Positions 3,178-27,729 of a stretch of DNA of 32,041 nucleotides are shown here, piece by piece (the first letter of the stretch is position 1; the number at the start of each line of letters is the position of its first letter). The notes under the pieces were generated by a model. That model had not been told where the DNA came from. It worked only from the letters and a program-made list of their open reading frames with translations, and ran no database searches. The DNA is from Gammaproteobacteria bacterium. Its GTDB lineage: Bacteria; Pseudomonadota; Gammaproteobacteria; Steroidobacterales; Woeseiaceae. A program made the position numbers and the translations under genes. Location of the stretch: the NCBI GenBank assembly GCA_009937525.1, contig JAACFE010000019.1:1-32041 (forward strand). Direction: 5' to 3'.

Positions 3178-4019
3178 TGCGATCGCCTCGAATCCAGCAG
3201 GTCGCGCATCCCGTCACCGAGAAAATTGAAGCACAGCAGGATCGCTGCCAGCAGCGTTGCCGGGATCAGCAGTATCCACGATGCGCCTTCCATCTGCTTG
3301 GTGCCGTCATTCACGAGCTTGCCCAGCGACGTTTGCGGCTCCTGCACCCCGAGCCCGAGGAAGCTCAGGAAGGACTCGATGAGAATCGCCTGGGGAATCG
3401 TCAGTGTCACGTACACGATGACGATGCCGACGAGGTTTGGAGCGATATGCCTGAAGATGATTCTCGGTGTCGATACACCGATGAGCTGGGCCGCCTGGAC
3501 GAACTCGCGCTCGCGCAGGCTCAGAGTCTGGCCGCGCACGATGCGCGCCATGTCGAGCCAGTTGATCGCACCGATCGCGACAAAGATAAGCAGGAAGTTC
3601 CTTTCGAAAACGACGAGCAGCAGTATGACGAAGAAGATGAACGGCGTCGCGTACAGGGTGTCGACGAGGCGCATCATCACTCCGTCGACGCGGCCGCCGA
3701 CAAACCCGGCGGTAGCGCCATAGAGGACGCCGATGACCAGGCTCACGACGCTTGCGACGATGGCCACCACGAACGTCACGCGCACGCCCATCATCGTCCG
3801 CACGAAGAGGTCGCGGCCGAGGTCGTCGGTGCCGAAGATGTGGCCCGCGCTCATTGTCGGCGCCCGCAGGATGCTGCTGAAGTCCGCGGCGAGGTATTCG
3901 TTGGGGCTGATCCAGGGCGCGACGATTGCGATCAGGGCAATGGCGCAAAGCGTGCCGCCACTGACCATGACGGTCTTGCTGGTCCGCAGGTGCGACCCGA
4001 TTCTTGCGACCACGCTCAC
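3174..4019 (-). CDS. Oligopeptide ABC importer, permease subunit (OppC/DppC type)
   Basis: The 281-residue inner-membrane permease has a first transmembrane helix preceded by a short cytoplasmic tail, a periplasmic loop with the FGTDDLGRD motif typical of DppC/OppC, and a BPD_transp_1 domain with several hydrophobic helices. The coupling-loop region reads EREFVQAAQLIGVSTPRIIFRH, the EAA-like motif that contacts the ATPase (here described in parts: EFVQAAQLIG then PRIIFRH). I chose the GTG at 4017-4019 because it overlaps the OppB stop by four bases and leaves a normal DppC N terminus. A longer open frame upstream in the same register runs antisense-like through oppB and is not plausible. It pairs with the OppB-type permease to form the channel for di- or oligopeptides. 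Confidence 0.88.
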   Translation of the reverse strand: MSVVARIGSHLRTSKTVMVSGGTLCAIALIAIVAPWISPNEYLAADFSSILRAPTMSAGHIFGTDDLGRDLFVRTMMGVRVTFVVAIVASVVSLVIGVLYGATAGFVGGRVDGVMMRLVDTLYATPFIFFVILLLVVFERNFLLIFVAIGAINWLDMARIVRGQTLSLREREFVQAAQLIGVSTPRIIFRHIAPNLVGIVIVYVTLTIPQAILIESFLSFLGLGVQEPQTSLGKLVNDGTKQMEGASWILLIPATLLAAILLCFNFLGDGMRDLLDSRRSQ

Positions 4020-4939
4020 CGGCGCCGTATCCGTGGATCGACGGCGCCGTACAGCAAGTCGACGAGCAGGTTGAGCAATACGATCAGCGCCGCATAGAAG
4101 ATGACGACGCCGAGCACCAGCGTGTAGTCGCGATTCAGTGACGCCCGCACGAATAGCTGGCCCAGGCCCGGAATACCGAAGATTTCCTCGACGACCACGG
4201 AACCCGTCAGCACGGCTGCCACCGCGGGTCCCATGTACGACAGCACCGGCAGCATTGCCGGCTTGAGCGCGTGGTAGCGGACGATCGCCAGGGTGCCGAG
4301 GCCCTGGGCGCGGGCCGTCCGTATGAAGTCGCTCGACAACACCTCGATCAGGCTCGCGCGCGTCAGGCGTGCAACGTATGCGATCTGCGGCAGTGCCAGC
4401 GCGAGGACCGGCAGCAGCAGGCGCGAACCGCCTTCGCTGCCCGTCCAGCTGGCCGGCAACCACTGCAGCTTCACCGCAAACAACAGCACCAGCAGCGGCG
4501 CCACGACGAACACCGGCACCGAAATCCCGGTCATTGCAAAGGCCATCACGACCTTGTCGAGCGGTGAATTGTTTTTCAGCGCCGCGACGATCCCGGCGCT
4601 GACGCCAACGACCGTGGCCAGCAGCATCGCAAGCGCGCCGAGCTGGACGGAGACCGGGAACGAGCGGCCGATGAGTTCGCTGACCGTGTAATCACGATAG
4701 CTGTATGACGGTCCGAAGTTCCCCCGAACTACGCCGCCGATGTACCGCAGGAACTGCATCGGCAGCGGTTCATCGAGGTGATAGGCCGCCGCGATGTTTG
4801 CCTCGATCTCGGCCGGCAGCGCACGTTCATCGTCAAACGGGCCGCCCGGTGCTGCATGCACCAGTAGGAACGCGAGAACGATGACCAGGAACAATGTCGG
4901 GATCGCCCCCAGCAGTCTGCGCAGCGTGTATCGCAGCAA
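4016..4939 (-). CDS. Oligopeptide ABC importer, permease subunit (OppB/DppB type)
   Basis: The 307-residue protein begins MLRYTLRRLLGAIPTLF, the characteristic DppB/OppB opening, with an N-terminal helix followed by a periplasmic stretch containing HAAPGGPFD and a further set of transmembrane helices. The cytoplasmic EAA-type loop reads SSDFIRTARAQGL, which docks onto the ATPase. The start is a TTG at 4937-4939, 12 bp after the end of the binding-protein gene, with AGGGA a few bases upstream on the coding strand. It forms the translocation pore with the following OppC-type subunit. Length is normal for the family (about 306-340). Confidence 0.88.
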   Translation of the reverse strand: MLRYTLRRLLGAIPTLFLVIVLAFLLVHAAPGGPFDDERALPAEIEANIAAAYHLDEPLPMQFLRYIGGVVRGNFGPSYSYRDYTVSELIGRSFPVSVQLGALAMLLATVVGVSAGIVAALKNNSPLDKVVMAFAMTGISVPVFVVAPLLVLLFAVKLQWLPASWTGSEGGSRLLLPVLALALPQIAYVARLTRASLIEVLSSDFIRTARAQGLGTLAIVRYHALKPAMLPVLSYMGPAVAAVLTGSVVVEEIFGIPGLGQLFVRASLNRDYTLVLGVVIFYAALIVLLNLLVDLLYGAVDPRIRRR

Positions 4940-4951
4940 AGCGTGCTTCCC

Positions 4952-6586
4952 TTATGGGCGCCCATCCTGTTCCGCGGCGCCGAGACTCAGGTGTTGACTG
5001 TAATGGTAATCCAGAATGTTGTCCTGCCAACCTTCGACGTCGGGCTTGACGAGGTGTTTGCTGACGTAGAAATACAGTGGGATCACGGCGTGGTCTGCCA
5101 GGAACACTCGCTCGGCCTCCTCCAGGTATAACCTGCGTCGGTCCAGATCGACCTGCTCTCCGGCCGAGCGCATCAGGTCATCGTACTCGGGATTCGAATA
5201 GCCCGGCATGTTCGCGGCGCTGTCACCCTGCATGATCGCGAGGAAGGTGTTGGCATCGTTATAGTCGCCGAACCAGCTCGAACGGAAGGCCTGTGTGGCC
5301 GCGCGTTCCCGCATCTGGTCGAGTAACACCTGGAACTCCACGTTGACGATGTGCGCCTCCGCGCCGAGGACTTCACGCCACATGGCCTGAACCGCCAGCG
5401 CGATTCGTTGCTGCGTGTCGGACGTGTTGTAGCGCAGCTCGAAGCGCAGCGGATTGTCCTTGCCGTACCCGGCCTTCCTGTAGAGGCTTTGAGCGATTGC
5501 GTTACGCTCCTGCTGGCTCAATTCGGCATACGACAGCCGCACCGGCTCGTAATTATGAATGCCCGGCGGAACCCAGCTGTATGCCGGCGCCTCGCCGCGG
5601 CCGGTGATCGCCTCAACCAGCACTTCCCGATCGATCGCCATCGACAGCGCCTGCCGCAACTCCGGACTATCCCGAAACGGCGGCTTTGTCATGTTGAAAC
5701 CGTAATAGTAGACCCCGAGCGTCGGCGCAACGTGCAGCTCGTCGCCGTACTCGGCACGAATCTGCTCGAAGTTCTCCGGCGGCACAGTGCTCGTGAAGTG
5801 CAGCTCGCCGGCCCGGTAGCGATTGAACTCCGCCATTTCCTGCGCAACGATGTGGTGGCGCACGACGTCGACCGAGGTCTCGGCATCGTTCCAGTAAAGC
5901 CTGTTCCTGTGCAGCTCGATGATCGCGCCCGGCTCCCAGTCTGCCAGCACGTATGCACCGTTCGAGACCAGGTTGCCGGCACGGGCGAACGCGTCGCCGT
6001 GCTGCCGGACCGATCCGCGATGCACCGGGAACGTGCTCGGATGGGTCAGGAGGCTCAGCAGGTATGGCGTGGGCCGGACCAGCGAGATGACGAGCGTATG
6101 GTCGTCGCTCGCAGTGACGCCGAGTTCGTCGGGGCTCCGCTTCCCTGCAACGATATCGGCCGCATTCACCACGTTGCCGAGTTCGGCGGCGTAGAACGCG
6201 GCCGTGGCCGGGTCAACAAGCCGCCGCAGCCCGAACACGAAGTCCGCCGCCGTGACCGGCTCGCCGTTCGACCAGCGCGCGTCGGGACGAATACGGAACG
6301 TGTGGGTCAGCCCGTCCTCGCTCATTTCCCAGCTTTTGGCGGTCCCGGGGACCAGCTCGCCCGCCGCGTCATAGGCTACCAGGCCTTCGCCGATGTCACG
6401 CAGCACGTCTGCCGCCTGGACACTGCGGCTCTTCTGCGGATCGAGGGATTCGGGGTCCGTGGACAGCGCACGATTCAGCGCCGGCGCATCCGGCTGATCT
6501 GCCGTGCGATCGGCGCAGGCAGCGAGCATGATCGCGCCAGCTGCCAGCGTCACGAGGATCACCGGAAGCAATCGGGTTTTTTTCAT
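4952..6586 (-). CDS. Peptide-binding lipoprotein of the ABC importer (SBP_bac_5, OppA/DppA type)
   Basis: The 544-residue protein is a periplasmic solute-binding protein that captures peptides for the adjacent permeases. It starts with MKKTR, a hydrophobic stretch and a lipobox L21-A22-A23-C24, so it should be lipidated at Cys24 and tethered to a membrane rather than free in the periplasm. The mature part shows family-5 features: LNRALSTDPESLDPQKSR near the start, WSNGEPVTAADFVFGLRR (the conserved W.dG.p.ta.D..ya..R block), and PPFRDSPELRQALSMAID. Length fits OppA (about 540). It begins only 13 bp after the mnmG stop, so it is either read from the mnmG transcript or from a promoter inside mnmG. 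It is closest in style to OppA/MppA, but substrate is unknown. Confidence 0.92.
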   Translation of the reverse strand: MKKTRLLPVILVTLAAGAIMLAACADRTADQPDAPALNRALSTDPESLDPQKSRSVQAADVLRDIGEGLVAYDAAGELVPGTAKSWEMSEDGLTHTFRIRPDARWSNGEPVTAADFVFGLRRLVDPATAAFYAAELGNVVNAADIVAGKRSPDELGVTASDDHTLVISLVRPTPYLLSLLTHPSTFPVHRGSVRQHGDAFARAGNLVSNGAYVLADWEPGAIIELHRNRLYWNDAETSVDVVRHHIVAQEMAEFNRYRAGELHFTSTVPPENFEQIRAEYGDELHVAPTLGVYYYGFNMTKPPFRDSPELRQALSMAIDREVLVEAITGRGEAPAYSWVPPGIHNYEPVRLSYAELSQQERNAIAQSLYRKAGYGKDNPLRFELRYNTSDTQQRIALAVQAMWREVLGAEAHIVNVEFQVLLDQMRERAATQAFRSSWFGDYNDANTFLAIMQGDSAANMPGYSNPEYDDLMRSAGEQVDLDRRRLYLEEAERVFLADHAVIPLYFYVSKHLVKPDVEGWQDNILDYHYSQHLSLGAAEQDGRP

Positions 6587-6599
6587 GGGGTGTCCCGGG

Positions 6600-8501
6600 T
6601 CAGGCCGTCTTCGCGAGCTGGCGCTTTTTCAGATGAATGAGCAGTAACGATACGGCGGAAGGGGTCATGCCTTCAAGGCGCGAGGCCTGGCCGAGCGTGA
6701 CCGGGCGCGCCGACTCCAGCCGCTGCCTGGCTTCATGCGACAGCCCGTCGACGGTCGCGTAGTCGATATCGGCGGGCAGCTTCAGCCGCTCCTGCTTCGC
6801 GTGCTTCTCGATCTCCCGGTGCTGCCGATCGATGTACCCTGCGTACTTCGCGCGGACTTCGATGGCGAGCTCGACCTGCTCCGCCTGCTCGGCGGCCCCG
6901 CAGGAATCGCCGGCCATCGGTCCCACGCGACTCAGGCTGGTGACGGCGCGGTAGCCCAGTTCCGGGCGGCGCAGGAGATCCGATGCCGTGCACTCCCGCG
7001 TGAGTTCGCGGCCCAGGATGTCGCGGTCGGCGTCGTCCACGTCCGCCGGCCGCAGGAGGGTTCCGTCGAGACGCCGCTGCTCTCGCGCGATCGCCTCCTG
7101 CTTCCTCCCGAACAGCGACCAGCGCCGTTCGTCGACAACGCCGAGCTCGCGACCGACGGGCGTCAGCCGCTCGTCGGCATTGTCTTCGCGCAGCGTCAGC
7201 CGGTACTCGGCGCGGCTCGTGAACATCCGGTACGGCTCGCTGACGCCGCGCGTGATCAGGTCGTCCACGAGTACGCCGATGTAGGCCTCGTCCCGGCGCG
7301 GGTACCAGCCTTCCTGGCCGCCTGCCGCGCGCGCGGCATTGATTCCGGCGAGTATGCCCTGCGCGCCGGCCTCCTCGTAGCCCGTCGTGCCGTTGATCTG
7401 GCCCGCGAAATAAAGCCCCGCCACATACTTCGTTTCGAGGGTCGGCAGCAGGTCGCGCGGATCGAAGTAATCGTACTCGATGGCATAGCCCGGCTGCGTG
7501 ATGCGCGCATTCTCGAACCCGACGATCGAGCGAACGAAGCGCTCCTGCGTTGCGGCCGGCAGGCTCGTCGAGATGCCGTTCGGGTAGACCAGCTGCGTGT
7601 CCAGTCCTTCGGGCTCGACAAAGATCTGGTGCGAGGCCTTGTCCGCGAAGCGCACGATCTTGTCTTCCACCGACGGACAGTAGCGCGGCCCGACGCCGTC
7701 GATCTTTCCCGAATACATCGGTGATTCGTGCAGCGACGCCCGGATGATGTCGTGGGTCTCCTCGCGGGTCTTGGTGATGTGGCAGGACACCTGTCGGGGA
7801 TGCTCGGCACGTGTGCCGATGAAGGAGAAGACCGGTGCCGGCGTGTCGCCGGGCTGTTCCTGCATCACCGCAAAATTCAGCGTCCTGCCGTCCAGTCGCG
7901 GCGGCGTACCGGTCTTCAGCCGAGCCACGCTGAAGGGCATGTCCCGCAACCTCTCTGCAAGCCGGATCGACGGTGCGTCGCCGGCGCGGCCACCCGGCCG
8001 CTCGGTGTTCCCGATCAGGATGCGCCCGCCGAGAAACGTGCCGACGGTGAGCACCACCGCGGCTGCGACGAACGAATTGCCGTCCGCGGTTACGGCGCCG
8101 GCGACGCGGTCGCCCTCCACGATGAGGTCGACGACATTCGCCTCGGCTATCGTCAGGCCGGACTGCGCATCCAGCAAGGTCCGTATTGCGCGCCTGTAAA
8201 GTTCCCTGTCAGCCTGTGCGCGGGTGGCGCGAACCGCGGGACCCTTGCTCGCGTTCAGGGTTCGGAACTGGATGCCCGCACGATCGATGGCCGTCGCCAT
8301 GACGCCCCCGAGCGCATCGACTTCGCGCGTAAGATGCCCCTTGCCGATGCCGCCGATCGCCGGGTTGCAGCTCATCTGCCCGAGTGCCGAGCGCTTCTGC
8401 GTGATCAGCAGGGTTCGGGCACCCGCGCGCGCGGCGGCCGCGGCGGCCTCCGTACCCGCGTGACCACCTCCGATCACGATGACGTCGTAACGATTGCGCA
8501 T
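6600..8501 (-). CDS. mnmG: tRNA uridine 5-carboxymethylaminomethyl synthesis enzyme MnmG (GidA)
   Basis: MnmG is the FAD-dependent partner of MnmE and installs the cmnm5/nm5 group on wobble U34 of tRNAs in the cytoplasm. The 633-residue length matches the family (about 629). The FAD-binding [19 protein letters not shown] loop lies at residues 9-27 (GxGxxG), followed by [15 protein letters not shown] with the conserved Cys, and by [18 protein letters not shown] in the second half. The C-terminal helical domain that binds MnmE is complete. The ATG at 8499-8501 gives the expected [11 protein letters not shown] start. In many gammaproteobacteria mnmG is followed by rsmG and parAB; here it is followed by the peptide importer operon instead. 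It diverges from the S33 peptidase gene across 115 bp that hold a candidate promoter. Confidence 0.97.
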
Positions 8502-8541
8502 GGGCGATGCTGGTCAAAAAATGAGCAACTCAGGGCGGCGC

Positions 8542-8570
8542 ATTTTAGCGGTCTTTCTTTACATGCGGAA
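8542..8570 (-). promoter_or_regulatory. mnmG: Candidate sigma70-type promoter of mnmG
   Basis: On the minus strand a -10 hexamer TAAAAT (8547-8542) stands 17 bp from a weak -35 TTCCGC (8570-8565). It lies about 40 bp upstream of the mnmG ATG and inside the only intergenic space ahead of it. The -10 is good and the -35 poor, so this is a prediction by position and match only. Confidence 0.4.
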
Positions 8571-8616
8571 GCCGCGTCGCCAAGATAGCCCGGCTCTGAC
8601 GAAGGCCAGGACGCCT

Positions 8617-10080
8617 ATGCTGCGCAGCAAACACCTGTATTTGACCGCCGTACTCCTCTTCGGCCCCGTACCGGTGCTCGCCTCCCCGGCGCTGGAGCTC
8701 GAAGACTGCCGCATCAGCGCCGGCCCCGAGTTTCCCGGCATCAAGGCCCGTTGCGGGAGGATGCTGCGGCCGGAAAACCCCAACGACCCCGGCTCGTCCG
8801 AGATCGAGATCGCGGTGGCCGTGGTGCCCGCCCTGGACCTCAAGCCGGCGCCGGACCCGTTCGTGCCGCTGGCCGGCGGGCCGGGCGGCAGTGCGATCGA
8901 GTTCTATGCGGCCTACTCGTTGGCCTTCGAACATGTCCGCCGCCACCGTGACATCCTGCTGGTCGATCAGCGCGGCACCGGCGCCTCGTCGCGCATGGAT
9001 TGCGACGTCGACGACGACATCATCGAAGGCAAGTTCGACACCGAACAGGTGATCGAGATTACCCGGGATTGCCTGGACGCGCTGCCCCACGATCCACGCT
9101 TCTTTACGACCAGTGTCGCCGTTACCGACCTCGAAGCGGCACGCGCAGCCCTGGGGTACGGCCCGTTGAATCTCTACGGCGTGTCCTACGGCACCCGGGT
9201 CGCCCAGCACTTCGCGAAGCGCTTTCCGGATTCCACACGATCCATCGTCCTCGACGGCGTGGTGCCGCCGCAGATCGTGCTGGGCCCCGAGATTGCAACG
9301 GAGGCCCAGGACGCGCTGGACGAGATCTTTGCGCGCTGCGCGGCGGACGAAGCATGCAACGCGCGTTTTCCGAACCTGCCGCAGGCGTTTCTGCAGATTC
9401 GTGCCGAGCTGGAAGCGCGGCCCGTCACCGTCGAGATACCGAACCCGCTCACCGGGGAACGGGAGACCAGCGAGTTCGGCCCCGCGGAGCTGGCGGGCGC
9501 GATCCGCCTGCTCGCCTACAACGCGAATTCCGTGGCGATCGTGCCGTTGCTGATCGACGCGGCAGCGGCCGGCAACTTCGAACCGCTCGCGGCGCAGTTC
9601 CAGATGATTGCGGAGCGGATGTCCGACGCGCTGGCGCTCGGCATGCACAACTCGGTCATGTGTTCTGAAGATGCTCCTTTTTACAGTGACGAGGCAATCG
9701 ACTACGAGGCGCTCGAAGCGAGTTACATCGGGGTCGTGCAGCTCGATGCCATCGTGGCGATGTGCTCGGTGTGGCCGGCGGGGCCGGTCGACGAGGACTT
9801 TCGTGAACCGCTCGACACCGCTATCCCGGTGCTGTTGCTGTCGGGGGACGCGGACCCGATCACGCCGCCGCGCTACGCCTCGCTCGCGATGGTGGACCTG
9901 GAGCGCGCCCGGCATCTCATCGGTATCCGGCAGGGTCACGGCCAGGTGGCCGTCGGCTGCACGCGGCGGCTGGTCGGAGAGTTCGTGGCATCGGCCGACC
10001 CGGTCGGCCTCGACGCCGGCTGCCTCGAGCGCAGCTTCGTCATGCCATTCTTCCTGGATTTCGGGGGACCGGCGCCATGA
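8617..10080 (+). CDS. Exported alpha/beta-hydrolase peptidase (S33, tripeptidyl/prolyl aminopeptidase-like)
   Basis: The ATG at 8617 gives a 487-residue protein with a Sec-type signal peptide (hydrophobic core about residues 8-20, likely cleavage after VLAS). A longer open frame reaches back to 8494, but the signal peptide and CCAGGA ahead of 8617 fix this start. The mature enzyme shows the S33 pattern: oxyanion loop GGPGGS at 87-92, DQRGTG at 107-112, nucleophile Ser180 in GVSYGTR, acid in GDADPITP (Asp401 or Asp403) and His431 in QGHGQ. Several cysteines suit a disulfide-bonded periplasmic protein. Relatives release N-terminal residues or tripeptides from peptides; the exact specificity is not visible. 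It overlaps the following ATPase gene by four bases (ATGA), so it is probably the first gene of the run to 15133. Confidence 0.85.
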   Translation: MLRSKHLYLTAVLLFGPVPVLASPALELEDCRISAGPEFPGIKARCGRMLRPENPNDPGSSEIEIAVAVVPALDLKPAPDPFVPLAGGPGGSAIEFYAAYSLAFEHVRRHRDILLVDQRGTGASSRMDCDVDDDIIEGKFDTEQVIEITRDCLDALPHDPRFFTTSVAVTDLEAARAALGYGPLNLYGVSYGTRVAQHFAKRFPDSTRSIVLDGVVPPQIVLGPEIATEAQDALDEIFARCAADEACNARFPNLPQAFLQIRAELEARPVTVEIPNPLTGERETSEFGPAELAGAIRLLAYNANSVAIVPLLIDAAAAGNFEPLAAQFQMIAERMSDALALGMHNSVMCSEDAPFYSDEAIDYEALEASYIGVVQLDAIVAMCSVWPAGPVDEDFREPLDTAIPVLLLSGDADPITPPRYASLAMVDLERARHLIGIRQGHGQVAVGCTRRLVGEFVASADPVGLDAGCLERSFVMPFFLDFGGPAP

Positions 10081-10805
10081 TCAGGGTCGAGGGCATTCAC
10101 AAGTCCTTCGGCGCGGTGCGCGCGGTCCGTGGCGTAAGCTTCGAGGCCCCGGACGGCAAGATAACGGGGCTGCTCGGGCCGAATGGGGCGGGCAAGTCGA
10201 CCACCCTGCGCGTGCTCTACACGGTCCTCAGGCCCGACCAGGGCAGCGCGTCGATCGACGGCGCCGACGTCGTCACCCAAAGCCTCGAAGCGCGCCGCCG
10301 CATCGGCGCGCTGCCCCACGGCGCCGGCCTTTACCCGCACCTGACGGCGCGCGAGAACATCGCCTACTACGCCAGGCTCTGCGGGATCGATGCGGGATCG
10401 ATCGACGACCGGGTCGACAGCATCATTCGCCTGCTCGAGATCGGCGACTTCGCGGATCGCCGCACGAAAGGCTTTTCGCAGGGTCAGCGCACGAAGGTCG
10501 CCATTGCGAGGAGCCTGGTGCACGATCCGCAGAACATCATCCTCGACGAGCCGTCGAACGGACTGGACGTCATGGCAACGCGCTCGCTCCGGGACCTGAT
10601 CCTTAAACTGAAAGACGCCGGACGCTGCGTCCTGTTTTCCAGTCACGTCATGCAGGAGGTCGCGGCGCTTTGCGACGATATCTGCATCATTGCCAACGGC
10701 AAGGTCGCGATCGACGATTCGGCCGCCGGCATCCGCGAACGGACCGGCTGTGACGATCTCGAAGACGCCTTCGTCGAGGCGATCCGGATGGTGGGGCCGT
10801 CATGA
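10077..10805 (+). CDS. NatA-type ABC transporter ATP-binding protein
   Basis: The 242-residue ATPase has Walker A GPNGAGKST at residues 34-42, a Q-loop region leading to GLYPHLTARENIAYY, a signature FSQGQRTKVAIAR near 132-144 (SQGQ in place of SGGQ), Walker B IILDEPSNGLDV near 154 and the switch His in FSSHVMQE. The LYPHLTARENI stretch is typical of the NatA/CcmA-like group that pairs with ABC-2 permeases. It should drive export through the NatB-type protein encoded next, with which it overlaps by four bases. NatAB of Bacillus exports sodium, but homologues in proteobacteria are mostly uncharacterised, so the cargo is open. It also overlaps the peptidase gene upstream. Confidence 0.88.
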   Translation: MIRVEGIHKSFGAVRAVRGVSFEAPDGKITGLLGPNGAGKSTTLRVLYTVLRPDQGSASIDGADVVTQSLEARRRIGALPHGAGLYPHLTARENIAYYARLCGIDAGSIDDRVDSIIRLLEIGDFADRRTKGFSQGQRTKVAIARSLVHDPQNIILDEPSNGLDVMATRSLRDLILKLKDAGRCVLFSSHVMQEVAALCDDICIIANGKVAIDDSAAGIRERTGCDDLEDAFVEAIRMVGPS

Positions 10806-11983
10806 TGCGCACGCTGACGGCCGTCTTCCGCAAGGAGGTGCTCGACAACGTGCGCGACCGCCGCACGCTTGCATCGGCATTGATCATGGGCCCGCTGTTC
10901 GGGCCGATGCTGTTCGCCTTCGTAATCAACCTGTCCATCGAGCGCTCCCTCGACGACATCGAGCGCGTCACCGAGCTTCCGGTGATCGGCGGGGAGTATG
11001 CGCCTAACCTGCTTCGCTATCTCGATAGCCGCAACATCGACATCGTCGACGGCCCGGCCGACCGCGATGCGGCGCTCGACGCCGTCAGCACCGGGACACA
11101 CGACGTGGTCCTCGTGATACCGCCGGAATTCGGTGAGCAGTTCTCGGCATCCACGCCGGCCCGGGTCGAGTTGATCACCGACCAGTCGAATTCACAGGCC
11201 GACCGTGAGGCCCGCCGGGTCCGCGGCGCGCTCGCGGCCTACGGCCAGGAACTTGCGGTGATTCGCCTGACGGCCCGCGGGGTCAGCCCGCTCGCCCTGC
11301 GGCCGCTGAACGTCGACGAGGTGGACATGTCCACGCCGAGCGGCCGCTCGGCGATCCTGCTGGGCATGATGAGCTACTTTTTCATATTCGCGCTGCTCAT
11401 GGGCGGCATGTACCTTGCCATCGATACCACGGCCGGAGAGCGGGAACGCGGCTCGCTGGAGCCGCTGCTGGCGCTGCCGGTCACCCGCAACCAGTTGCTG
11501 CTCGGCAAGGTCGCCGCCACCTGCGTATTCATGGCGCTGTCGCTAAGCCTGTCGCTGGGCTCGTTTTTCGTGGCCCTCAAGTTCATGCCGCTGGACGAGC
11601 TGGGCATGACGCCCAATTTCGGCCCGCTGACGGTCGGGGCGGCATTCCTCATTCTCTCGCCCTTCATCCTGCTCGGCGCGGCCGTGATGACGCTTGTCGC
11701 GTCGTTTACGAAGAGCTACCGGGAGGCCCAGACCTGGCTGAGCGTTGTGCTGCTGGCACCGACCCTGCCAATACTCATCGTCAGCATTCTCACCCTCAGG
11801 CCACGCCTCGAGTTCATGTTCGTTCCCAGCCTGAGCCAGCACCTGCTGCTCATCGACATGGTAAAAAACGAGCCGCTGGACCCGCTGCACGTGGCGATTT
11901 CCGTTACCAGCACGCTACTGTTCGGAGGGCTCCTGACCTGGATCTGCGCCCGCCTGTACCACCGCGAGGGACTCCTTGGTTGA
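10802..11983 (+). CDS. NatB-type ABC-2 permease
   Basis: This 393-residue membrane protein has the NatB plan: a cytoplasmic N terminus (MMRTLTAVFRKEVLDNVRDRRTL), one transmembrane helix, a large extracytoplasmic domain of about 150 residues, then a cluster of roughly five helices beginning near residue 183. The motif TAGERERGSLEPLLALPVTRNQLLLGK is the conserved cytoplasmic loop of ABC-2 permeases (key residues GERERGSLEPLL and PVTR). It forms an exporter with the preceding ATPase, coupled through an ATGA overlap. The stop overlaps a TTGACA hexamer that may serve the next gene. Direction of transport and substrate are inferred from family only. Confidence 0.85.
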   Translation: MMRTLTAVFRKEVLDNVRDRRTLASALIMGPLFGPMLFAFVINLSIERSLDDIERVTELPVIGGEYAPNLLRYLDSRNIDIVDGPADRDAALDAVSTGTHDVVLVIPPEFGEQFSASTPARVELITDQSNSQADREARRVRGALAAYGQELAVIRLTARGVSPLALRPLNVDEVDMSTPSGRSAILLGMMSYFFIFALLMGGMYLAIDTTAGERERGSLEPLLALPVTRNQLLLGKVAATCVFMALSLSLSLGSFFVALKFMPLDELGMTPNFGPLTVGAAFLILSPFILLGAAVMTLVASFTKSYREAQTWLSVVLLAPTLPILIVSILTLRPRLEFMFVPSLSQHLLLIDMVKNEPLDPLHVAISVTSTLLFGGLLTWICARLYHREGLLG

Positions 11984-12035: not shown

Positions 12036-13715
12036 ATGTCCCTGTTCTCCGAGCTACGGCGTCGCAACGTCTTCAAGGTCTTGCTGGTCTACCTCATCGC
12101 AGGCTGGCTGATCGTAAAGCTCCTTCATCACCTGCACCCGGTCATCGGCCTGCCGCACTGGACCGAGAAGCTCGTGGGCCTGATTCTGCTCGTCGGCCTG
12201 CCGCTCGCGCTGTATTTCGCGTACATCTACGAGATCACGCCGGTCGGGCTCAAGAAGGCGGTCGACGTCGACCAGACCCAGTCGATCGTCTACAAGACCG
12301 GCCAGAAACTCAACGCCGCGGTCGCCGTGGTGACCGTCCTGCTGCTGTCCGCACTGGTCGTCGGCCGCCTGTTCCCGGAGCCTCCGGCGCTCATCGACGA
12401 TAGCCCCATCGTGCTGGCGCCGACGATGCAGGGCGTGCCGCCCGAGATCCGCAGTGTCACACTGGAGAACGGCCTGGAGATCATCGTCTGGCCGGATCAC
12501 GATATTCCCAACGTGGCGCTTTACTTTTTCGTGCGCGCCGGCGGGCGTAACGGTTACCCGGGCACCACCGGACTCGCGCACTTTTTCGAGCACATGATGT
12601 TCAACGGCACAGAGGACCTGGAGCCGGGCGAGTTCGACCGCATCATGGAAGCGGCCGGCGGCCAGAACAACGCCGCCACGTCGAACGACGTCACGGTCTA
12701 CCAGGACTGGTTCCCTCGATCGGCGCTCGAAACCATCTTCGAAATCGAGGCCGAGCGTCTCCAGAACCTCGAATTCGACGCCGAGGCCATCGAGAGCGAG
12801 CGCGGCGTCATTTCCTCGGAGCGCCGCACGACCGTCGACAACAACAACATCAGCAGGCTGGTGGAACAGGTTCGCGCCACGGCCTACGTCGCGCACCCCT
12901 ACCAGTTCCCCGTCATCGGCTGGCCGTCCGACATCGCGTCGTGGACCCAGGAAGACCTCGAGAATTTCTACCGAACCTACTACGCGCCGAACAACATCAC
13001 GATGGTCGTCGTCGGTGACGTAACGCCCGCCGAGATTTTCGAGCTGGCGGAAGACTATCTCGAGGACCTCCCGGCACAGGATCCGCCGGCCCCCGTGCGT
13101 ACCATCGAGCCGGAACAACAGGGTGAACGCCGCGTCGTGATCGAGACCGACGCCCAGACGCCGATGCTTCATGTTGCATTTCACGCAGGCGCTGCAGCAG
13201 ATCCCGAGACGCCCGTCATGAGGCTGTTGCTGAGCATACTCGTCTACGGTGATTCTTCGCGCCTGCACCGCCAGCTCGTCGAGGAAGAGCAGCTTGCCAT
13301 CTCGATCGGCGGCTTCCCGTTCGAGGGTTTCGACCCGGGGCTCGTTTATTTCTATGCGACCTTGCCGCCCGGCGGTGACCTCGGCTTGCTCGAGCAGCGT
13401 CTGTTCGAGGAGTTTGCGCGTGTCGCCGACGAAGGGGTCAGCGAGGCGGAGCTGGAGAAAGCGCGCAACATCGCACTGGGAGAATTCTGGGGCTCGATGG
13501 CAACGATCAACGGCAAGGCGGCGCACCTCGGCGAGGCGGCCGTGTTCCTCGGTAGTTACGAGAGGCTGTTCGACCTCGCGAAAGTCATCGAGTCCATCAC
13601 CGACGAAGACCTGAAAGCGGTCGCCGCCAGGGTCTTTCGTCGCGGCAACGCCACGATCGGCGTTCTGTCTTCGCCCGTCGCCGGGGAACAGCAGGACGAG
13701 GAGGACCAGGAATGA
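12036..13715 (+). CDS. Membrane-anchored M16 zinc metallopeptidase (active subunit) with three-helix N-terminal module
   Basis: The 559-residue protein joins two parts. Residues 1-113 form a module with RRRN, helix 1 (about 12-31), helix 2 (about 46-66), the motif EITPVGLKKAVDVDQTQSI (in pieces: EITPVGLKK, DVDQTQSI) and helix 3 (about 93-111). In marine gammaproteobacteria I know this module from the N termini of TPR/adenylate-cyclase-like proteins. From about residue 128 an M16 domain follows, with the inverted zinc motif H182-F-F-E185-H186, and E255 or E262 as third ligand. By the positive-inside rule the peptidase lies in the periplasm. The start at 12036 is chosen because MSLFSELRRRN matches the module; the open frame extends 13 codons further. 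No ribosome binding site is evident. It overlaps the next M16 gene by four bases. Only one M16 unit plus part of the second is present, so it needs a partner. Confidence 0.85.
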   Translation: MSLFSELRRRNVFKVLLVYLIAGWLIVKLLHHLHPVIGLPHWTEKLVGLILLVGLPLALYFAYIYEITPVGLKKAVDVDQTQSIVYKTGQKLNAAVAVVTVLLLSALVVGRLFPEPPALIDDSPIVLAPTMQGVPPEIRSVTLENGLEIIVWPDHDIPNVALYFFVRAGGRNGYPGTTGLAHFFEHMMFNGTEDLEPGEFDRIMEAAGGQNNAATSNDVTVYQDWFPRSALETIFEIEAERLQNLEFDAEAIESERGVISSERRTTVDNNNISRLVEQVRATAYVAHPYQFPVIGWPSDIASWTQEDLENFYRTYYAPNNITMVVVGDVTPAEIFELAEDYLEDLPAQDPPAPVRTIEPEQQGERRVVIETDAQTPMLHVAFHAGAAADPETPVMRLLLSILVYGDSSRLHRQLVEEEQLAISIGGFPFEGFDPGLVYFYATLPPGGDLGLLEQRLFEEFARVADEGVSEAELEKARNIALGEFWGSMATINGKAAHLGEAAVFLGSYERLFDLAKVIESITDEDLKAVAARVFRRGNATIGVLSSPVAGEQQDEEDQE

Positions 13716-15133
13716 TCGCGTCCCGCGCAGGCGTTCGCATCGCCATCCTGCTGTTCGTGCTCCTGGCCGGCAGCGCGTCGGCTGCGGGCGTCACGCTGCC
13801 GACGTTCCATCGCTTCGACCTCGACAACGGCACCGTGCTGCTGCTGAGCCATAGACCCGAAGTGCCGCTGGTCTCGGTAACGGCGATCCTGCGTGGCGGC
13901 GCGGTGACGGATCCGGCCGGGCACAACGGCCTTGCCAACCTGCTTGCGTCTTTGCTCGAGAAAGGTGCCGGGGAACGTGACGCCGCCCTGTTTGCGGAAA
14001 CCGTCGATGCGTCCGGCGGCGCTCTCACGAGCCGCGCCGACCTCGAGACCATTACGATTTCGGGTACATTCCTCGCGCGTGATTCCGGCCTGATGGTCGA
14101 GCTACTGTCCGACATGCTGTTGCGACCGAGCCTCGACGAGGCGGAGCTGGAGAAGCTGCGCGAGCGTTCGATCAACTTCATTCGCGCGGCGAAGGACACC
14201 AACCTCAATGCGCTGTTGCCGATCTACGGGCAGGCCTTCCTGTTCGGGGAACACCCTTACGGCAGCCCGGTGAGCGGCAGCGAGACGTCGCTCGCCGAGA
14301 TCAGCCACGAAGACATCCTGAGCTTTTACGAGCAGCAGCTGGGCGGCGACCGCTTGACGATCGCGGTCACCGGGGACTTCGACGTGGCGCTGATGAACGC
14401 GCGGCTCAGCGATGCATTCGGCGACTGGCGCCCGGCTGCCGATGCCTTGCCCGAGATCACGGCCGCCGAGCAGCAGGTCGGCCGCCGGGTGCTGCTGATC
14501 GACAAGCCGGGCGCCACGCAGACCTATTTCTGGCTCGGCAACGTCGGCGTTGCGCGCGGCTATGAACACCGCGCTGCGCTCGACATCGCCAACACGGTTT
14601 TCGGTGGCCGCTTTACATCCATGCTGAATACGGAACTTCGCTTGAATTCCGGCCTGACCTACGGCGCGCGATCGCAGCTTTCCAGGGCATCGCAACCGGG
14701 GTCGATAGCCATCGCCTCGTTTACGCCCAGCGAGACGACGGTCGAGGCAATCGATATGGCGCTCGGCGTTCTCGGCCGGCTGCACCAGGACGGCGTGGAT
14801 GATGACACGATCGTGTCGGCCCGCAACTACATCCTCGGCCAGTTCCCGACGTCGCTGGAAACGGCCGCGCAGGTCGGCAGCCAGCTGGCGGCGCTCGAGG
14901 CTTTCGGCCTGGATGTTTCCTATATCAACGACTACGGCGCTGCACTCCTGTCGGCCGACACAGAGGCGGTGGCCACCGTCATCGACGCGGTCTTCCCCGC
15001 CGCTGACGACCTCGTATTCGTGCTGCTCGGGGATGCCGAGCTGATTCGCGACCAGGTGAGCAAGTACGGGCCGCTGATCGAGATGCCGATCACCGAGCCG
15101 CATTTCCGGGTGCAGGCGCCTGACGAAGAATAA
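13712..15133 (+). CDS. Secreted M16-family protein lacking the zinc site (non-catalytic partner)
   Basis: The 473-residue product has a Sec signal peptide (hydrophobic core about residues 9-22, then SASA) and a full M16 fold of two halves. Aligned on the GLAHFFEH segment of the upstream protein, it reads GLANLLAS, so the ligands His, Glu and His are replaced by Asn76, Ala79 and Ser80: it cannot bind zinc in the usual way. The second half keeps LNSGLTYGARS, the Arg/Tyr-type substrate-binding element of M16 partners. This matches two-chain M16B enzymes in which one subunit is catalytic and the other holds substrate, as in mitochondrial processing peptidase. The ATGA overlap supports equal synthesis of both. 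It converges on mnmE with only 15 bp between stops. Confidence 0.87.
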   Translation: MIASRAGVRIAILLFVLLAGSASAAGVTLPTFHRFDLDNGTVLLLSHRPEVPLVSVTAILRGGAVTDPAGHNGLANLLASLLEKGAGERDAALFAETVDASGGALTSRADLETITISGTFLARDSGLMVELLSDMLLRPSLDEAELEKLRERSINFIRAAKDTNLNALLPIYGQAFLFGEHPYGSPVSGSETSLAEISHEDILSFYEQQLGGDRLTIAVTGDFDVALMNARLSDAFGDWRPAADALPEITAAEQQVGRRVLLIDKPGATQTYFWLGNVGVARGYEHRAALDIANTVFGGRFTSMLNTELRLNSGLTYGARSQLSRASQPGSIAIASFTPSETTVEAIDMALGVLGRLHQDGVDDDTIVSARNYILGQFPTSLETAAQVGSQLAALEAFGLDVSYINDYGAALLSADTEAVATVIDAVFPAADDLVFVLLGDAELIRDQVSKYGPLIEMPITEPHFRVQAPDEE

Positions 15134-15148
15134 CCGGCCGGCACCGCG

Positions 15149-16489
15149 CTATTTGCCGATACAGAATTCCGAGAAGATTCGGCCCAGCAGGTCGTCCGGC
15201 GTGAATTCGCCGGTGATCGTGCCGAGCGCCTGTTGCGACAGGCGCAGTTCCTCGGCCAGCAATTCCCCGGCACGCGCGGCCTGTAGCGCCGTGCGCCCCG
15301 CCTCGAATCGCTTCTGCGCCTCACGCAGCGCCTCGACGTGGCGGCGACGCGCGGTAAACGCCCCCTCCCCCAGGTCCCGGAACCCCGCGAGGTCGCGGAT
15401 GTGTTTGCGCAGCGCATCGAGGCCCTCACCGGTTTTGGCGGCAAGCTGCACGACGGGCCTGTCGCCCCCGACGATGCCCGGTGTGTCGCCGCTGAGATCG
15501 ATCTTGTTGCGCACAATCGTGACGGGGACGCCATCGGGCACGGGTTCCTCGATACCTTCCGGCACCGGCTCCGTCGCATCCTGGATCCACAGCACGGCGT
15601 CCGCCGCCGCCATGGCCTTGCGGGCACGGCGGATGCCTTCTTCCTCGATACGGTCAGGGTTGTCACGCAGCCCCGCCGTATCCACGAGTTCGACGGCGAG
15701 ACCGTCGATGTTGATACGCTCGCGCAATACGTCCCGGGTCGTGCCCGCGATCTCGGTAACGATGGCCGTCTCCTCGCCCGACAGGCGGTTCATCAGGCTG
15801 GACTTGCCCGCATTCGGCCGGCCGACGATGACGACCTGGTAACCGTCACGCATCACGCGCCCGACGGCCGCTTTCGACAGCAGCGACTCGAATGACGCCG
15901 CGCAGCTCGAGAGCCGCTCGACGAGTTCGTCGTCGGCGAGGAAATCGATCTCTTCCTCGGGAAAATCGATCGCCGCCTCGACATACATGCGCAGCGCCGT
16001 GAGCTGCTCCACCAGCTCGTTGACGGCATCGGAAAACGCGCCGTTCAGGGACCGCAAAGCGGCCCTGGCCGCCTGTGCCGTGCCGCTGTCGATGAGGTCG
16101 GCGATGGCTTCCGCCTGGACGAGGTCGAGCTTGTCGTTGAGGAACGCGCGCTTCGAGAATTCGCCGGGCTCGGCCAGCCTGGCGCCGAGCTCGATCGCCG
16201 CGTCGACGAGCAGCGACATGACGATGGGCCCGCCGTGGCCGTGAAGTTCGATGACCGATTCCCCGGTAAACGACGCCGGGGACGGGAAATAGAGCGCCAG
16301 CCCCTGATCCAGCGCCTCACCGCGCGAGTTCACGAAGGTGGCATAAGTAGCGACCCTCGGTTCCGGTAGACTGCCGAGCATGGCGCGCGCTATGCGCTCG
16401 GCATCATCGCCGGAAATACGCACGACCCCCACCCCACCCACACCGGGCGGCGTGGCCGGGGCAACTATCGTGTCGGTGTTAGCCGCCAT
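15149..16489 (-). CDS. mnmE: tRNA modification GTPase MnmE (TrmE)
   Basis: MnmE is the GTPase partner of MnmG in making (c)mnm5U34 in tRNA. The 446 residues show the N-terminal formyl-THF-binding domain (DTIVAPATPPGVGGVGVVRISG in the first 30 residues, then FPSPASFTGES and ELHGHGG), a helical domain, an inserted G domain with G1 GRPNAGKS at 223-230, GTTRD, G3 DTAG and G4 NKID, and the invariant C-terminal CIGK whose Cys ends the protein. Length is normal (about 454). The ATG at 16487-16489 lies 29 bp from the start of a divergent hydrolase gene. In many relatives mnmE directly follows yidC; here five elements (three plus-strand genes) separate them. Confidence 0.97.
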   Translation of the reverse strand: MAANTDTIVAPATPPGVGGVGVVRISGDDAERIARAMLGSLPEPRVATYATFVNSRGEALDQGLALYFPSPASFTGESVIELHGHGGPIVMSLLVDAAIELGARLAEPGEFSKRAFLNDKLDLVQAEAIADLIDSGTAQAARAALRSLNGAFSDAVNELVEQLTALRMYVEAAIDFPEEEIDFLADDELVERLSSCAASFESLLSKAAVGRVMRDGYQVVIVGRPNAGKSSLMNRLSGEETAIVTEIAGTTRDVLRERINIDGLAVELVDTAGLRDNPDRIEEEGIRRARKAMAAADAVLWIQDATEPVPEGIEEPVPDGVPVTIVRNKIDLSGDTPGIVGGDRPVVQLAAKTGEGLDALRKHIRDLAGFRDLGEGAFTARRRHVEALREAQKRFEAGRTALQAARAGELLAEELRLSQQALGTITGEFTPDDLLGRIFSEFCIGK

Positions 16490-16518: not shown

Positions 16519-17745
16519 ATGCAGAACGAGAAGGTCACTTTCGAGAATGACGACGGCCAGGTGCTGTCCGGCTTGATGGCGCTCCCGGAGACGCCGCCGA
16601 GAGCCCATGCGCTCTTCGCGCACTGCTTCACGTGCTCCAAGAACCTGAAGGCCGCCACGAATATCGCGCGGGCCCTCACCGATGCCGGTATCGCCGTGCT
16701 GCGCTTCGACTTCACGGGGCTCGGCCAGAGCGAGGGCGACTTCGCCGACACGAATTTTTCGTCCAACGTCAGCGACCTGCTCGCCGCCGTCCGGTTCCTC
16801 GACGCCAACTACCGGGCACCGGACATCCTGGTCGGCCACTCGCTGGGCGGGACAGCCGTCCTGCAGGCCGCCGCCGACGTTCCCTCCGCGGTCGCGGTCG
16901 CGACCATCGGTTCGCCATCGGACCCTGATCACGTTCGTCACCTGTTTTCAGGGGCAGAGGAGACGCTGCGTGATACGGGCGTCGCGGAGGTGGATCTCGG
17001 CGGGCGGCCGTTCACGATCAAGCGCCAGTTCCTGGACGACCTCCAGCGCCACGAACTGCCCGAGACCATCAGGTCGCTGCGCAAGGCGCTCCTTGTCCTG
17101 CACGCGCCGCTCGACGATATCGTCGAAATCCGGAACGCGTCCGAACTCTTTGCGCGAGCCCTGCATCCCAAGAGCTTTATCAGCCTGGACAAGGCAGACC
17201 ACCTCCTCAGCCGCGAGGAGGACTCGCGTTACGCCGGCCACGTGCTCGCCGCCTGGGCTTCGCGTTACCTCGGGGTCGAAGGCGCCCCGGCCGAAACCGG
17301 CGCGCTCGACGCCGGCGACTACGAGACGGCCGCAAGGACCCGTATCGGCGGTTTCCGCACCGAGGTACTCGCCGGCGGTCATGCACTCATCGCGGACGAA
17401 CCTGCGTCGGTCGGCGGCACCGGGGAAGGCCCGTCGCCTTACGACCTGCTGTCTGCCGCCCTTGCCGCCTGCACCTCCATGACGCTGAAAATGTATGCGT
17501 CGCATAAGAAACTGGACCTCCAGGCCGCCACGGTCCGGGTGCGGCACGGCAAGATCCACGCCTCGGATTGCGAAGACTGTGAAAACAAGGAAGGACGCAT
17601 TGACCAGTTCGAGCGGCAGTTATTGCTCACCGGAAACCTGTCCGACGCCGAGCGGCGGCGGCTGCTCGAGATCGCCGATCGCTGTCCGGTGCACCGGACG
17701 CTGCATGCCGAGGTGAAAGTGCGGACGGCGCTCGCCGATTCCTGA
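16519..17745 (+). CDS. Alpha/beta hydrolase-OsmC fusion protein
   Basis: The 408-residue cytoplasmic protein has two domains. The first 250 residues form an alpha/beta hydrolase with nucleophile Ser108 in GHSLGG, an acid residue in the LHAPLDDIV loop and His in KADHLLS. From about residue 275 an OsmC/Ohr-like domain follows, with Cys318 in LAACTSMTLK and Cys389 in CPVHRTL, the redox cysteine pair used to reduce organic hydroperoxides. Between them lies a DCEDCE segment that I believe is usual in this fused family. The pairing suggests detoxification of peroxidised esters or acyl compounds, which is inference. It has AGGT ahead of the ATG and shares a 29-bp divergent gap with mnmE, too short for two separate promoters. 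Confidence 0.88.
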   Translation: MQNEKVTFENDDGQVLSGLMALPETPPRAHALFAHCFTCSKNLKAATNIARALTDAGIAVLRFDFTGLGQSEGDFADTNFSSNVSDLLAAVRFLDANYRAPDILVGHSLGGTAVLQAAADVPSAVAVATIGSPSDPDHVRHLFSGAEETLRDTGVAEVDLGGRPFTIKRQFLDDLQRHELPETIRSLRKALLVLHAPLDDIVEIRNASELFARALHPKSFISLDKADHLLSREEDSRYAGHVLAAWASRYLGVEGAPAETGALDAGDYETAARTRIGGFRTEVLAGGHALIADEPASVGGTGEGPSPYDLLSAALAACTSMTLKMYASHKKLDLQAATVRVRHGKIHASDCEDCENKEGRIDQFERQLLLTGNLSDAERRRLLEIADRCPVHRTLHAEVKVRTALADS

Positions 17746-18921: not shown

Positions 18922-20628
18922 CTATTTTTCTTTCGTCTTCTTCTTGCCGCCTTTCCGGTTTTTTTCCTCCTGCTCGACGACCTTGTTGATCTTCCACTGC
19001 TGGGCGATCGACAGCACCGTATTGGTCGCCCAGTAAAGCACCAGGCCGGAGGGGAAGAAGGCAAAAAAGCCCGTGAACATGATCGGCATGATCTGCATCA
19101 CGCGCGCCTGTACCGGGTCTGCCGGCGCCGGATTCAGTTTTTGCTGCAGCAACATGGCCGCGCCCATGATCAGCGGCAGGATGAAGTACGGGTCGCGAGT
19201 CGAGAGGTCGGTGATCCACAGCGCGAACGGCGCCTGGCGCATTTCCACGCTCTCAATGAGTACCCAGTAGAACGCGAGGAAAAACGGCATCTGGATGAGT
19301 ATCGGCAGGCAGCCCGCGGCGGGATTGACGCCCTCGCGCTTGTAGAGATCCATCATCTGTTGGGACAGCTGCTGGCGGTCGTCCTTGTAACGCTCCTGCA
19401 GCGCCTTGATGCGCGGCTGCAGATTGCGCATTTTCGCCATCGAGCGGCCGCTCGTCTCGGTCATCTTGTAGAACACGAGCTTGATCAGCACCGTGACGAG
19501 GATGATAGAAACCCCCCAATTACCCACGTAGCCATAGATGAACGCGAGCAGCCAGAACATCGGCTGCGAGAGTATGGTGAGCCAGCCATAGTCCACGGTC
19601 AGTTTCAGCCGCTCATGGAGTTCGCCGAGCTGGGACTGGATCTTCGGGCCGACGAACAGCTGCCTCGAGAAGGTTTCCGAGGCGCCGGGTTCAACTGTGC
19701 GCTTGGCGCCGACGACGCTCGCGATCATCGTGTCGCCCTTCACTTCCACCCGGTAGACGTGGGGTGATCCTGTCTCGGGAATGATCGCACTCAGGAAGTG
19801 ATGCTGAATAGCGGCCACCCAGCCGTCCGGCGTCGAATACTCGACGGGCCCCTTGTCCACCAGGTCATCGCGACTGTACTTTTCCGCCTTGTCCCCGTTG
19901 TAGGTCTGCGGCCCATCGAAGGAATAGGAATCGACGTCGAACATCGACCGCTCGACACCCTTCGAGCGGCGCAGCAGCTGCGTGTACTGATCGCCGCGCC
20001 ATGGCGCGGTGCTGTTGTTGACGAGTGTCTGATCGACCAGGATCGCATAGCTGCCGCGGCGCAGCAGGAAGCGCTTTTCGATGCTGACGCCGCTCTCGTC
20101 CGTCCAGGTCAGCGGTACCGTGAGTTCATCGGCTTCACCCAGTCCGTATTCGCTTCGCGGCGAACTGAACACGGTTTCCTGATCTGCGCTCGTTCCACTC
20201 ACGCCGCGCAGCCCGGTGCGTATCAGTCCGAGATTGCTGCGCTCGGGGCCCAGGAGCTGTACGAGTTGGTCCGGTTGGTCTTTCTCGATCGGGTAGTCGA
20301 GCACCGTTGCCCGGACCAGCGTGCCGCCGCGCGTCGAAATTTGCAGCTCCAGCACATCCGTGCGCACGGTGATGATTGCGACCGCGCCATCGGCATCTGC
20401 GGTTGCGGTGCCGGGCAGCGCGGCAACGGCTTCCTCGGGCTCTGCCACGGTGTCGCCGAGCTCCGGTAGCGTCAACTGTTGTTCGGCCGGTGTCGCCGTC
20501 GGCTGCTCGGCATCGGCCGGCTGGGTTGCGGGCACGGGGGCGGGCCCGTAGTCCTGCATCCAGGTCTGGTAGGCCAACCAGAGCAGGACGCCGAAAGCAG
20601 CCCATACCAGCAGTCGTTGATTGTCCAT
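18922..20628 (-). CDS. yidC: Membrane protein insertase YidC (Oxa1 family)
   Basis: YidC inserts and folds inner-membrane proteins, alone or with SecYEG. The 568 residues follow the gram-negative plan: MDNQRLLVWAAFGVLLWLAYQ as first transmembrane helix, a large periplasmic domain to about residue 345, then the conserved five-helix insertase core with GYVGNWGVSIILVTVLIKL and KREGVNPAAGCLPILIQMPFF (key parts GVNPAAGCLP and QMPFF). The positively charged C-terminal tail (KNRKGGKKKTKEK) would help ribosome contact. The start lies only 6 bp after the rnpA stop, leaving no yidD between them. It belongs to the rpmH-rnpA-yidC operon. Confidence 0.96.
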   Translation of the reverse strand: MDNQRLLVWAAFGVLLWLAYQTWMQDYGPAPVPATQPADAEQPTATPAEQQLTLPELGDTVAEPEEAVAALPGTATADADGAVAIITVRTDVLELQISTRGGTLVRATVLDYPIEKDQPDQLVQLLGPERSNLGLIRTGLRGVSGTSADQETVFSSPRSEYGLGEADELTVPLTWTDESGVSIEKRFLLRRGSYAILVDQTLVNNSTAPWRGDQYTQLLRRSKGVERSMFDVDSYSFDGPQTYNGDKAEKYSRDDLVDKGPVEYSTPDGWVAAIQHHFLSAIIPETGSPHVYRVEVKGDTMIASVVGAKRTVEPGASETFSRQLFVGPKIQSQLGELHERLKLTVDYGWLTILSQPMFWLLAFIYGYVGNWGVSIILVTVLIKLVFYKMTETSGRSMAKMRNLQPRIKALQERYKDDRQQLSQQMMDLYKREGVNPAAGCLPILIQMPFFLAFYWVLIESVEMRQAPFALWITDLSTRDPYFILPLIMGAAMLLQQKLNPAPADPVQARVMQIMPIMFTGFFAFFPSGLVLYWATNTVLSIAQQWKINKVVEQEEKNRKGGKKKTKEK

Positions 20629-22937: not shown

Positions 22938-22976
22938 AATCTAATAATTTCCAATAATTATTAACAGGTGGAATCT

Positions 22977-25251: not shown

Positions 25252-27729
<2,478 letters not shown>

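Follow-up and report, generated by a model that had tools for sequence, protein, structure and literature searches.

The closest described systems to the peptidase pair considered here are SPH2681 and SPH2682 of Sphingomonas sp. A1 (PDB 3ami, 3amj), in which, as at our locus, an active subunit with the HXXEH motif is accompanied by a subunit with an R/Y pair. In the passages available to us, this division of labor between an HXXEH subunit and an R/Y subunit is described for Sph2681/Sph2682-type heterodimers generally (PMC8960859, our source for the role of the R/Y pair; PMC12731061). The M16 peptidases FusC and PqqL, which belong to protein-import systems, resemble our active subunit in their periplasmic location and in their association with genes for uptake, and the signal peptide of PqqL has been shown to be cleaved, but FusC and PqqL are single chains of two M16 halves and their linkage is to TonB-dependent outer-membrane transporters, according to the excerpts available of PMC6793856. 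At our locus, unlike in the Sphingomonas pair, the active subunit carries a three-helix module and usually lies in a conserved S33/ABC-2/Opp neighborhood. Our survey of the open-licence literature found nothing on an M16B peptidase with a membrane module, or on this module, and the word “transmembrane” does not occur in the M16 review PMC12731061.

The window, that is, the whole stretch of 32,041 nucleotides analyzed from Woeseiaceae contig JAACFE010000019.1, encodes the two subunits, which we call M16a and M16b, as follows:

12036-13715, + strand: M16a, a three-helix module followed by an active M16B peptidase subunit, 559 amino acids
12036-12374, + strand: three-helix membrane module, residues 1-113 (from copies in the same genome and their alignment)
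12069-12146, + strand: helix 1, residues 12-37 (AlphaFold2, hydropathy)
12162-12236, + strand: helix 2, residues 43-67 (AlphaFold2, hydropathy; 42-65 in the model of the module alone)
12267-12317, + strand: predicted cytoplasmic loop VDQTQSIVYKTGQKLNA (residues 78-94), better conserved than any other 17-residue window in M16a
12315-12371, + strand: hydrophobic part of helix 3, residues 94-112 (hydropathy, AlphaFold2), of which the module losers L134 and L135 keep a remnant
12450-12914, + strand: M16 domain 1, residues 139-293 (PF00675 on 158-293)
12579-12593, + strand: intact HFFEH zinc motif, residues 182-186
12939-13469, + strand: M16 domain 2, residues 302-478 (PF05193)
13712-15133, + strand: M16b, inactive partner subunit (PF05193/PF00675) with a Sec-type signal peptide (by eye)

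The M16a reading frame runs from the ATG at 12036 to a stop at 13715. PF00675 matches residues 158-293 at 2.7e-22 and PF05193 matches residues 302-478 at 1.1e-40, HXXEH is present, and no R-x6-Y occurs after residue 300. We take E262 (12819-12821) to be the likely third zinc ligand, from the role of its counterpart in the M16 family. The Sphingomonas pair is the closest PDB match both by sequence (3amj_C, 8.5e-73, with an alignment that begins at residue 141; 3ami_A, 9.1e-73) and by fold (Foldseek with the M16a model, 3ami_A at 4.0e-39, TM-score by target length 0.88). AlphaFold2 gave a mean pLDDT of 79.7 for the whole of M16a and 77.1 for the module alone. That an M16 peptidase with an intact HFFEH is fused to a three-helix module, as the original prediction had it, was thereby confirmed by Pfam, AlphaFold2 and hydropathy.

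The start of M16b overlaps the stop of M16a, and M16b is adjacent to M16a at 78 of 80 loci, the contigs of the other two (L137, L172) ending before its position. HxxEH is found in none of the 78 M16b rows, while R310/Y317 is found in 77 (the remaining row has a gap there), and most of the listed M16b N termini have signal peptides by eye. Both proteins are two-domain chains by Pfam, in line with the two chains of ~50 kDa that characterize M16B heterodimers, and the M16a model has the M16B fold. Most likely the pair forms an M16B heterodimer that works in the periplasm and is anchored in the inner membrane: M16a would be the active subunit of an oligopeptidase, held in the membrane unlike its relatives, M16b would be the catalytically dead half, exported via its signal peptide, and the two halves would close over small peptides.

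In the AlphaFold2 model the module consists of long helices at residues 12-37, 43-67 and 84-112 and a shorter one at 69-79, and hydropathy averaged over 41 fused sequences fits these helices. Lysine plus arginine averages 3.0 per sequence in the N-tail, 0.3 in loop 1 and 4.0 in loop 2, although the loci averaged came from a scan with two patterns, one of which (V[YF]KTGQKL) lies within the loop, so the loop figures from these sequences are biased; the linker past helix 3 is acidic. A basic N-tail and loop 2, a loop 1 with few basic residues and an acidic linker suggest that the N terminus is inside and the C terminus outside, which would place the peptidase in the periplasm. In other proteins the domains ahead of the module are of cytoplasmic kinds, and an FHA domain follows a version of the module without the third helix, both of which support this orientation independently. 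The periplasmic location given in the original prediction is supported by the distribution of charge and by the fact that the partner subunit has a signal peptide. We could not assign the module to a known family: residues 1-133 of M16a reached no Pfam or NCBIfam cut-off, the module profile found nothing significant among PDB sequences (best 0.039, ABCA4), and Foldseek with the module model found nothing in the PDB under E 5.

The module is a real unit that many proteins share. Of the 15 further places in the same genome that a single-sequence search with residues 1-133 hit, 12 have E values between 5.5e-26 and 3.3e-12 and two have values of 4.7e-7 and 6.5e-6; the weakest, at 0.004, is KefB-like by eye and was rejected as false, leaving 14 genuine further copies. 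Thirteen of these carry the module close to their N terminus, and 12 of the 13 fit a TolB_N-like profile (the nine seeds of which are all members from this genome, so that it was partly built from the proteins it matched), the other ending with its contig. In the fourteenth (L029) the module is C-terminal and follows a PF00486 winged helix-turn-helix (wHTH) domain and an ATPase-like region. A module profile built from 15 rows accepted ORFs at E 4e-8 to 8e-48, compared with 0.056 for the top-scoring one among 5,969 reversed ORFs, and it matches 99 of 107 family genomes, some with 30-43 matches and one with at least 43. Outside the family the module was found in four of 185 genomes of the class (E 1e-6) and in at least four of 397 genomes of a phylum sample (E 1e-8, with a small number of candidates scored in each genome); a single-sequence search of plasmids gave no match to the module of the window.

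What does the module usually accompany? Among 118 module ORFs at 96 chosen loci, 96 fit the TolB_N-like profile and one is an M16 protein, 11 more being cut or short and 10 being other proteins, counts that are not frequencies since the loci come from the same genome as the window, nine family, four class and four phylum genomes and one locus of G099, and leave aside the fused M16 copies of G046, G071, G074 and G093. Six of the 10 other proteins have TPRs (L235, L239, L252, L257, L266, L267), and the rest have FHA (L272, L274), FGE-sulfatase (L245) or PD40 (L261) domains. A wHTH domain stands ahead of the module and TPRs in L259, L262 and L273. The TolB_N-like/TPR membrane proteins share the module of residues 1-113 with M16a and carry a TolB_N-like C-terminal domain, mostly with TPRs; their loop is not fixed, and W24 and Q/E28 are kept. 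At positions that we chose as criteria in this analysis (E6, R9, R10, Y19, W63 and G71), conservation among 51 M16 modules is 98-100% except at residue 63, which is W in 92% and Y in 8%, the window protein having Y. The likeness of residues 1-113 to the N termini of TPR-type proteins, which had been proposed by eye, holds far beyond chance, and profile search with tabulation of partners showed the usual partner to be TolB_N-like, mostly with TPRs. The cyclase part of that proposal needs a correction, as such partners are rare in the chosen set: a cyclase-like domain was found in only two of 118 ORFs (L228, PF00211 at 20.0 bits versus a cut-off of 21.9; L257, by eye), and ahead of the module in both. 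The further idea that the module is transferable and not tied to one signaling family is supported by the several unlike partners seen.

Some arrangements of the module deserve mention in their own right. In three wHTH (PF00486)-ATPase-like proteins it is C-terminal, and the proteins end after its second or third helix (L029:3331-4986, L226:1343-3205, L242:1233-3077). In L272:2841-3539 and L274:2749-3486 a two-helix module is followed by FHA (PF00498), which is consistent with a C terminus at the inner face. L247:2858-3196 is a stand-alone copy of 113 residues with no further domain, and in L277 (G111:C94), a 19-kb contig from a draft genome of 1.5 Mb, some ten module genes follow one another in tandem.

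The stretch of M16a that varies least is the predicted cytoplasmic loop and not the active site. Over 51 fused rows its mean pairwise identity is 0.949 as against 0.933 for the zinc-site window, a small and nominal lead, and in the same rows the helices reach 0.57-0.66 and the first loop 0.32. That a loop of a membrane anchor should match an active site is unexpected. The 51 rows are all less than 95% identical to one another and were collected by whole-protein search, not by the loop pattern: 58 loci gave 56 ORFs (L311, with a full module by eye, fell outside the filter and L323 is cut), and L302 and L317 (broken or at a contig edge) and L320-L322 (module lost or truncated) stand outside the count. 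Contig ends truncate some of the rows, and counts of invariant columns therefore carry no meaning in the C-terminal half. AlphaFold2 confidence is low in the loop (mean pLDDT 54 for residues 71-80 and 48 for 81-90).

Comparison with 117 other modules shows how the constraint has shifted. Q80, T81, K87 and Q90 are each present in 100% of the 51 M16 modules, whereas in the others the top residue reaches at most 37% at position 80, 22% at 81 and 12% at 87, and R accounts for 60% at 90. Conversely, in helix 1, W24 is found in 99% of the other modules and 51% of the M16 modules (it is present in the window), and Q/E28 in 98% of the others and 0% of the M16 modules, where the residue is mostly W (K28 in the window); W24 with Q/E28 is our criterion for helix 1 and not a published definition. 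The fixed loop residues and the relaxed helix-1 hallmarks together suggest that the module was more than a passive companion of the peptidase and that its loop has come under a new and strong constraint. Its most likely function, to go by this conservation, would be to dock the peptidase to a protein at the inner face of the membrane, and the original suggestion that the module may target M16 to a complex is compatible with such extreme conservation.

A strong match to M16a was found in 57 of 107 family genomes (E ≤ 4.8e-134), all of them among the 73 genomes of the same genus, 16 of which have none. In the 34 genomes of other genera of the family no strong match was found, the best hits being other M16 proteins of about 28-35% identity. 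The full module is present in 52 of the 57 genomes (the 51 rows and, by eye, G046) and lost or truncated in three; the contigs of the remaining two stop before reaching it. Among named contigs, scanned with two patterns of which one is V[YF]KTGQKL inside the loop, 80 of 122 relatives were kept, and the titles of the fused loci name Woeseiaceae, Gammaproteobacteria, Proteobacteria and one Chromatiales draft. Unfused orthologs occur in Myxococcus, Steroidobacter, Lysobacter-related bacteria and Acidobacteria (among L139-L174). They are 53-61% identical over the M16 part and have M16b adjacent where the contig allows, and 28 of 30 have an apparent signal peptide, with one hydrophobic stretch at the N terminus and an AxA-like site; the two that fail this simple test are L156, which is signal-peptide-like by eye, and L174. 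Plain two-helix anchors, which would have counted against the original prediction, were not seen on M16 proteins of this type. Homologs of the S33 hydrolase, ABC ATPase and permease were not found in the fetched flanks of the 30 unfused loci.

In a tree of 77 M16 parts including that of the window (midpoint root; L153, L160, L168 and L170, which the motif filter did not pass, left out), the unfused set forms one side of a branch with 100/100 support and the module label needs three changes, a history that one gain and two losses would fit. Residues 1-113 would thus be an uncleaved module standing in place of the Sec signal peptide of the relatives, which it probably replaced in a single event that preceded the radiation of one large Woeseiaceae genus, in its ancestor. 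Because the tree is midpoint-rooted, the preference for a gain here over a loss elsewhere rests on taxonomic breadth. The losses are at the same syntenic locus: L134, L135 and L136 keep both peptidase genes and the S33/ABC neighbors. L134 and L135 (the loci listed as L321 and L322 in the genome set) form a clade in which the module alignment starts at residue 94 and residue 85, respectively; helix 3 is the only anchor left in L134, and L136 starts with a signal peptide. In L135, helix 3 may have turned into a cleavable signal. That two lineages lost most or all of the module at the same locus indicates that neither tether nor loop is indispensable, and we regard the tether and its history as well supported.

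The surroundings of the two peptidase genes are as follows:

1426-6586, - strand: oligopeptide importer genes beyond MnmG (ABC ATPase with oligo_HPY, permeases, SBP_bac_5; the Pfam basis leaves out the permease at 4016-4939)
6600-8501, - strand: MnmG, flanking
8494-10080, + strand: alpha/beta hydrolase with a TAP-like C terminus, usual neighbor (PF00561, PF08386, synteny); its true start is probably the ATG at 8617 (by eye)
10077-10805, + strand: ABC ATPase, usual neighbor (PF00005, synteny)
10802-11983, + strand: ABC-2 type permease, usual neighbor (PF12698, synteny)
15149-16489, - strand: MnmE, flanking (PF12631, PF10396)

The S33-type hydrolase, ABC ATPase and ABC-2 permease lie ahead of M16a at 38 of 43 fused named loci; three of the remaining five are cut by contig ends (L119, L123, L133) and two (L104, L138) are without all three genes. 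OppB, OppC and OppDF were found in 12 of 12 chosen genomes and SBP5 in 11 of 12, and OppB, OppC and OppDF also occur in G053, which lost the module. A scan for promoters and terminators gave no promoter-like sites, and seven terminator-like sites against 4.0 expected. The nearness of the hydrolase, the ABC-2 transporter and the Opp importer would point to peptide turnover at the inner membrane.

The two loci without these neighbors are informative about what the loop could bind. They belong to two 1.5-Mb genomes of the same genus (G045 with L104, G094 with L138; 89 and 90% complete), in which MnmG directly precedes M16a and the fusion is kept with its loop intact, with one I-to-V change in the listed sequences. 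The ABC permease was found nowhere in either genome, as against 2.3e-204 or better in three control genomes, and for the ABC ATPase only remote homologs were found (best 1.2e-34, against 4.2e-134 or better in the three controls). In both, the fused M16a is the sole module match, as the M16 copy also is in G046, a genome of 5.4 Mb. We therefore reject as obligatory partners of the loop both the adjacent ABC transporter and the other module proteins; any partner in these two genomes is neither.

How, then, is the module best explained? The view that we favor, to which we would give about an even chance in its entirety, is that of a tethered periplasmic M16B heterodimer with a cytoplasmic docking loop that takes part in peptide turnover at the inner membrane, the module presenting the near-invariant VDQTQSIVYKTGQKLNA to a protein of the inner face. 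A serious rival, somewhat improbable in our judgment but far from negligible, is that the module is a mere uncleaved signal anchor, swapped in near-neutrally, and that its loop is conserved for insertion and topology, not for binding a partner. The single-helix anchor of L134 and the signal peptide of L136, both with the same neighbors, speak for this account, and G045 and G094 keep the loop with no obvious partner left. However, the loop equals or surpasses the active-site window in conservation, also at the uncharged Q80, T81, S83 and G89, which exceeds in our judgment what a topology signal usually needs, and loop 1 and the helices, which belong to the same anchor, vary (0.32-0.66). Could the module instead be a sensor or transducer of the ToxR/CadC kind, with the M16 pair as its output in a regulated periplasmic proteolysis that answers a membrane or cytoplasmic signal? 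Related modules do lie between wHTH DNA-binding domains and TolB_N/TPR regions and also behind wHTH-ATPase proteins. We consider this unlikely, though, as the M16 modules have relaxed or lost W24 and Q/E28, the helix-1 hallmarks of the other modules, and no regulator is fused here; the PF00486 winged-helix domain of ToxR/CadC-like proteins was not found in M16a at E 1. Finally, all named fused members are, by their titles, draft metagenome assemblies, and one might ask if two genes had been joined in error by assembly or gene modeling. The same junction in 51 family-genome rows, all less than 95% identical, and the conserved synteny refute this in practice.

We offer a broader proposal tentatively, as one that is rather more apt to fail than to hold: the module may be a general, uncatalogued cytoplasm-facing docking unit common to different periplasmic domains. 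In Woeseiaceae an M16B peptidase would have captured it, and the inner loop would have become a fixed site of recognition through which the cleavage of peptides in the periplasm is coupled to a conserved partner on the cytoplasmic side. A widespread secreted enzyme seems to have swapped its export signal for the module of TPR-type proteins, and the lineages that later lost it are a built-in comparison. An uncatalogued module thereby becomes testable through an enzyme with measurable activity, and its 17-residue inner-face loop is a specific target for a probe. Woeseiales are abundant in marine sediments and have been suggested to grow on proteinaceous matter (PMC7082342), so that a tethered peptidase encoded next to genes for peptide transport is relevant to their way of feeding.

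The cassette of S33 hydrolase, two ABC genes, M16a and M16b sits between mnmE and mnmG, and the window as a whole resembles the neighborhood of a replication origin, with DnaN (22968-24074), GyrB (25288-27729) and YidC (18922-20628) in addition to MnmE and MnmG. Elsewhere in the window, 29227-31272 encodes an M13 family peptidase (PF05649, PF01431), and at 16519-17745 an alpha/beta hydrolase (PF12146/PF12697) is fused to an OsmC-like domain (PF02566).
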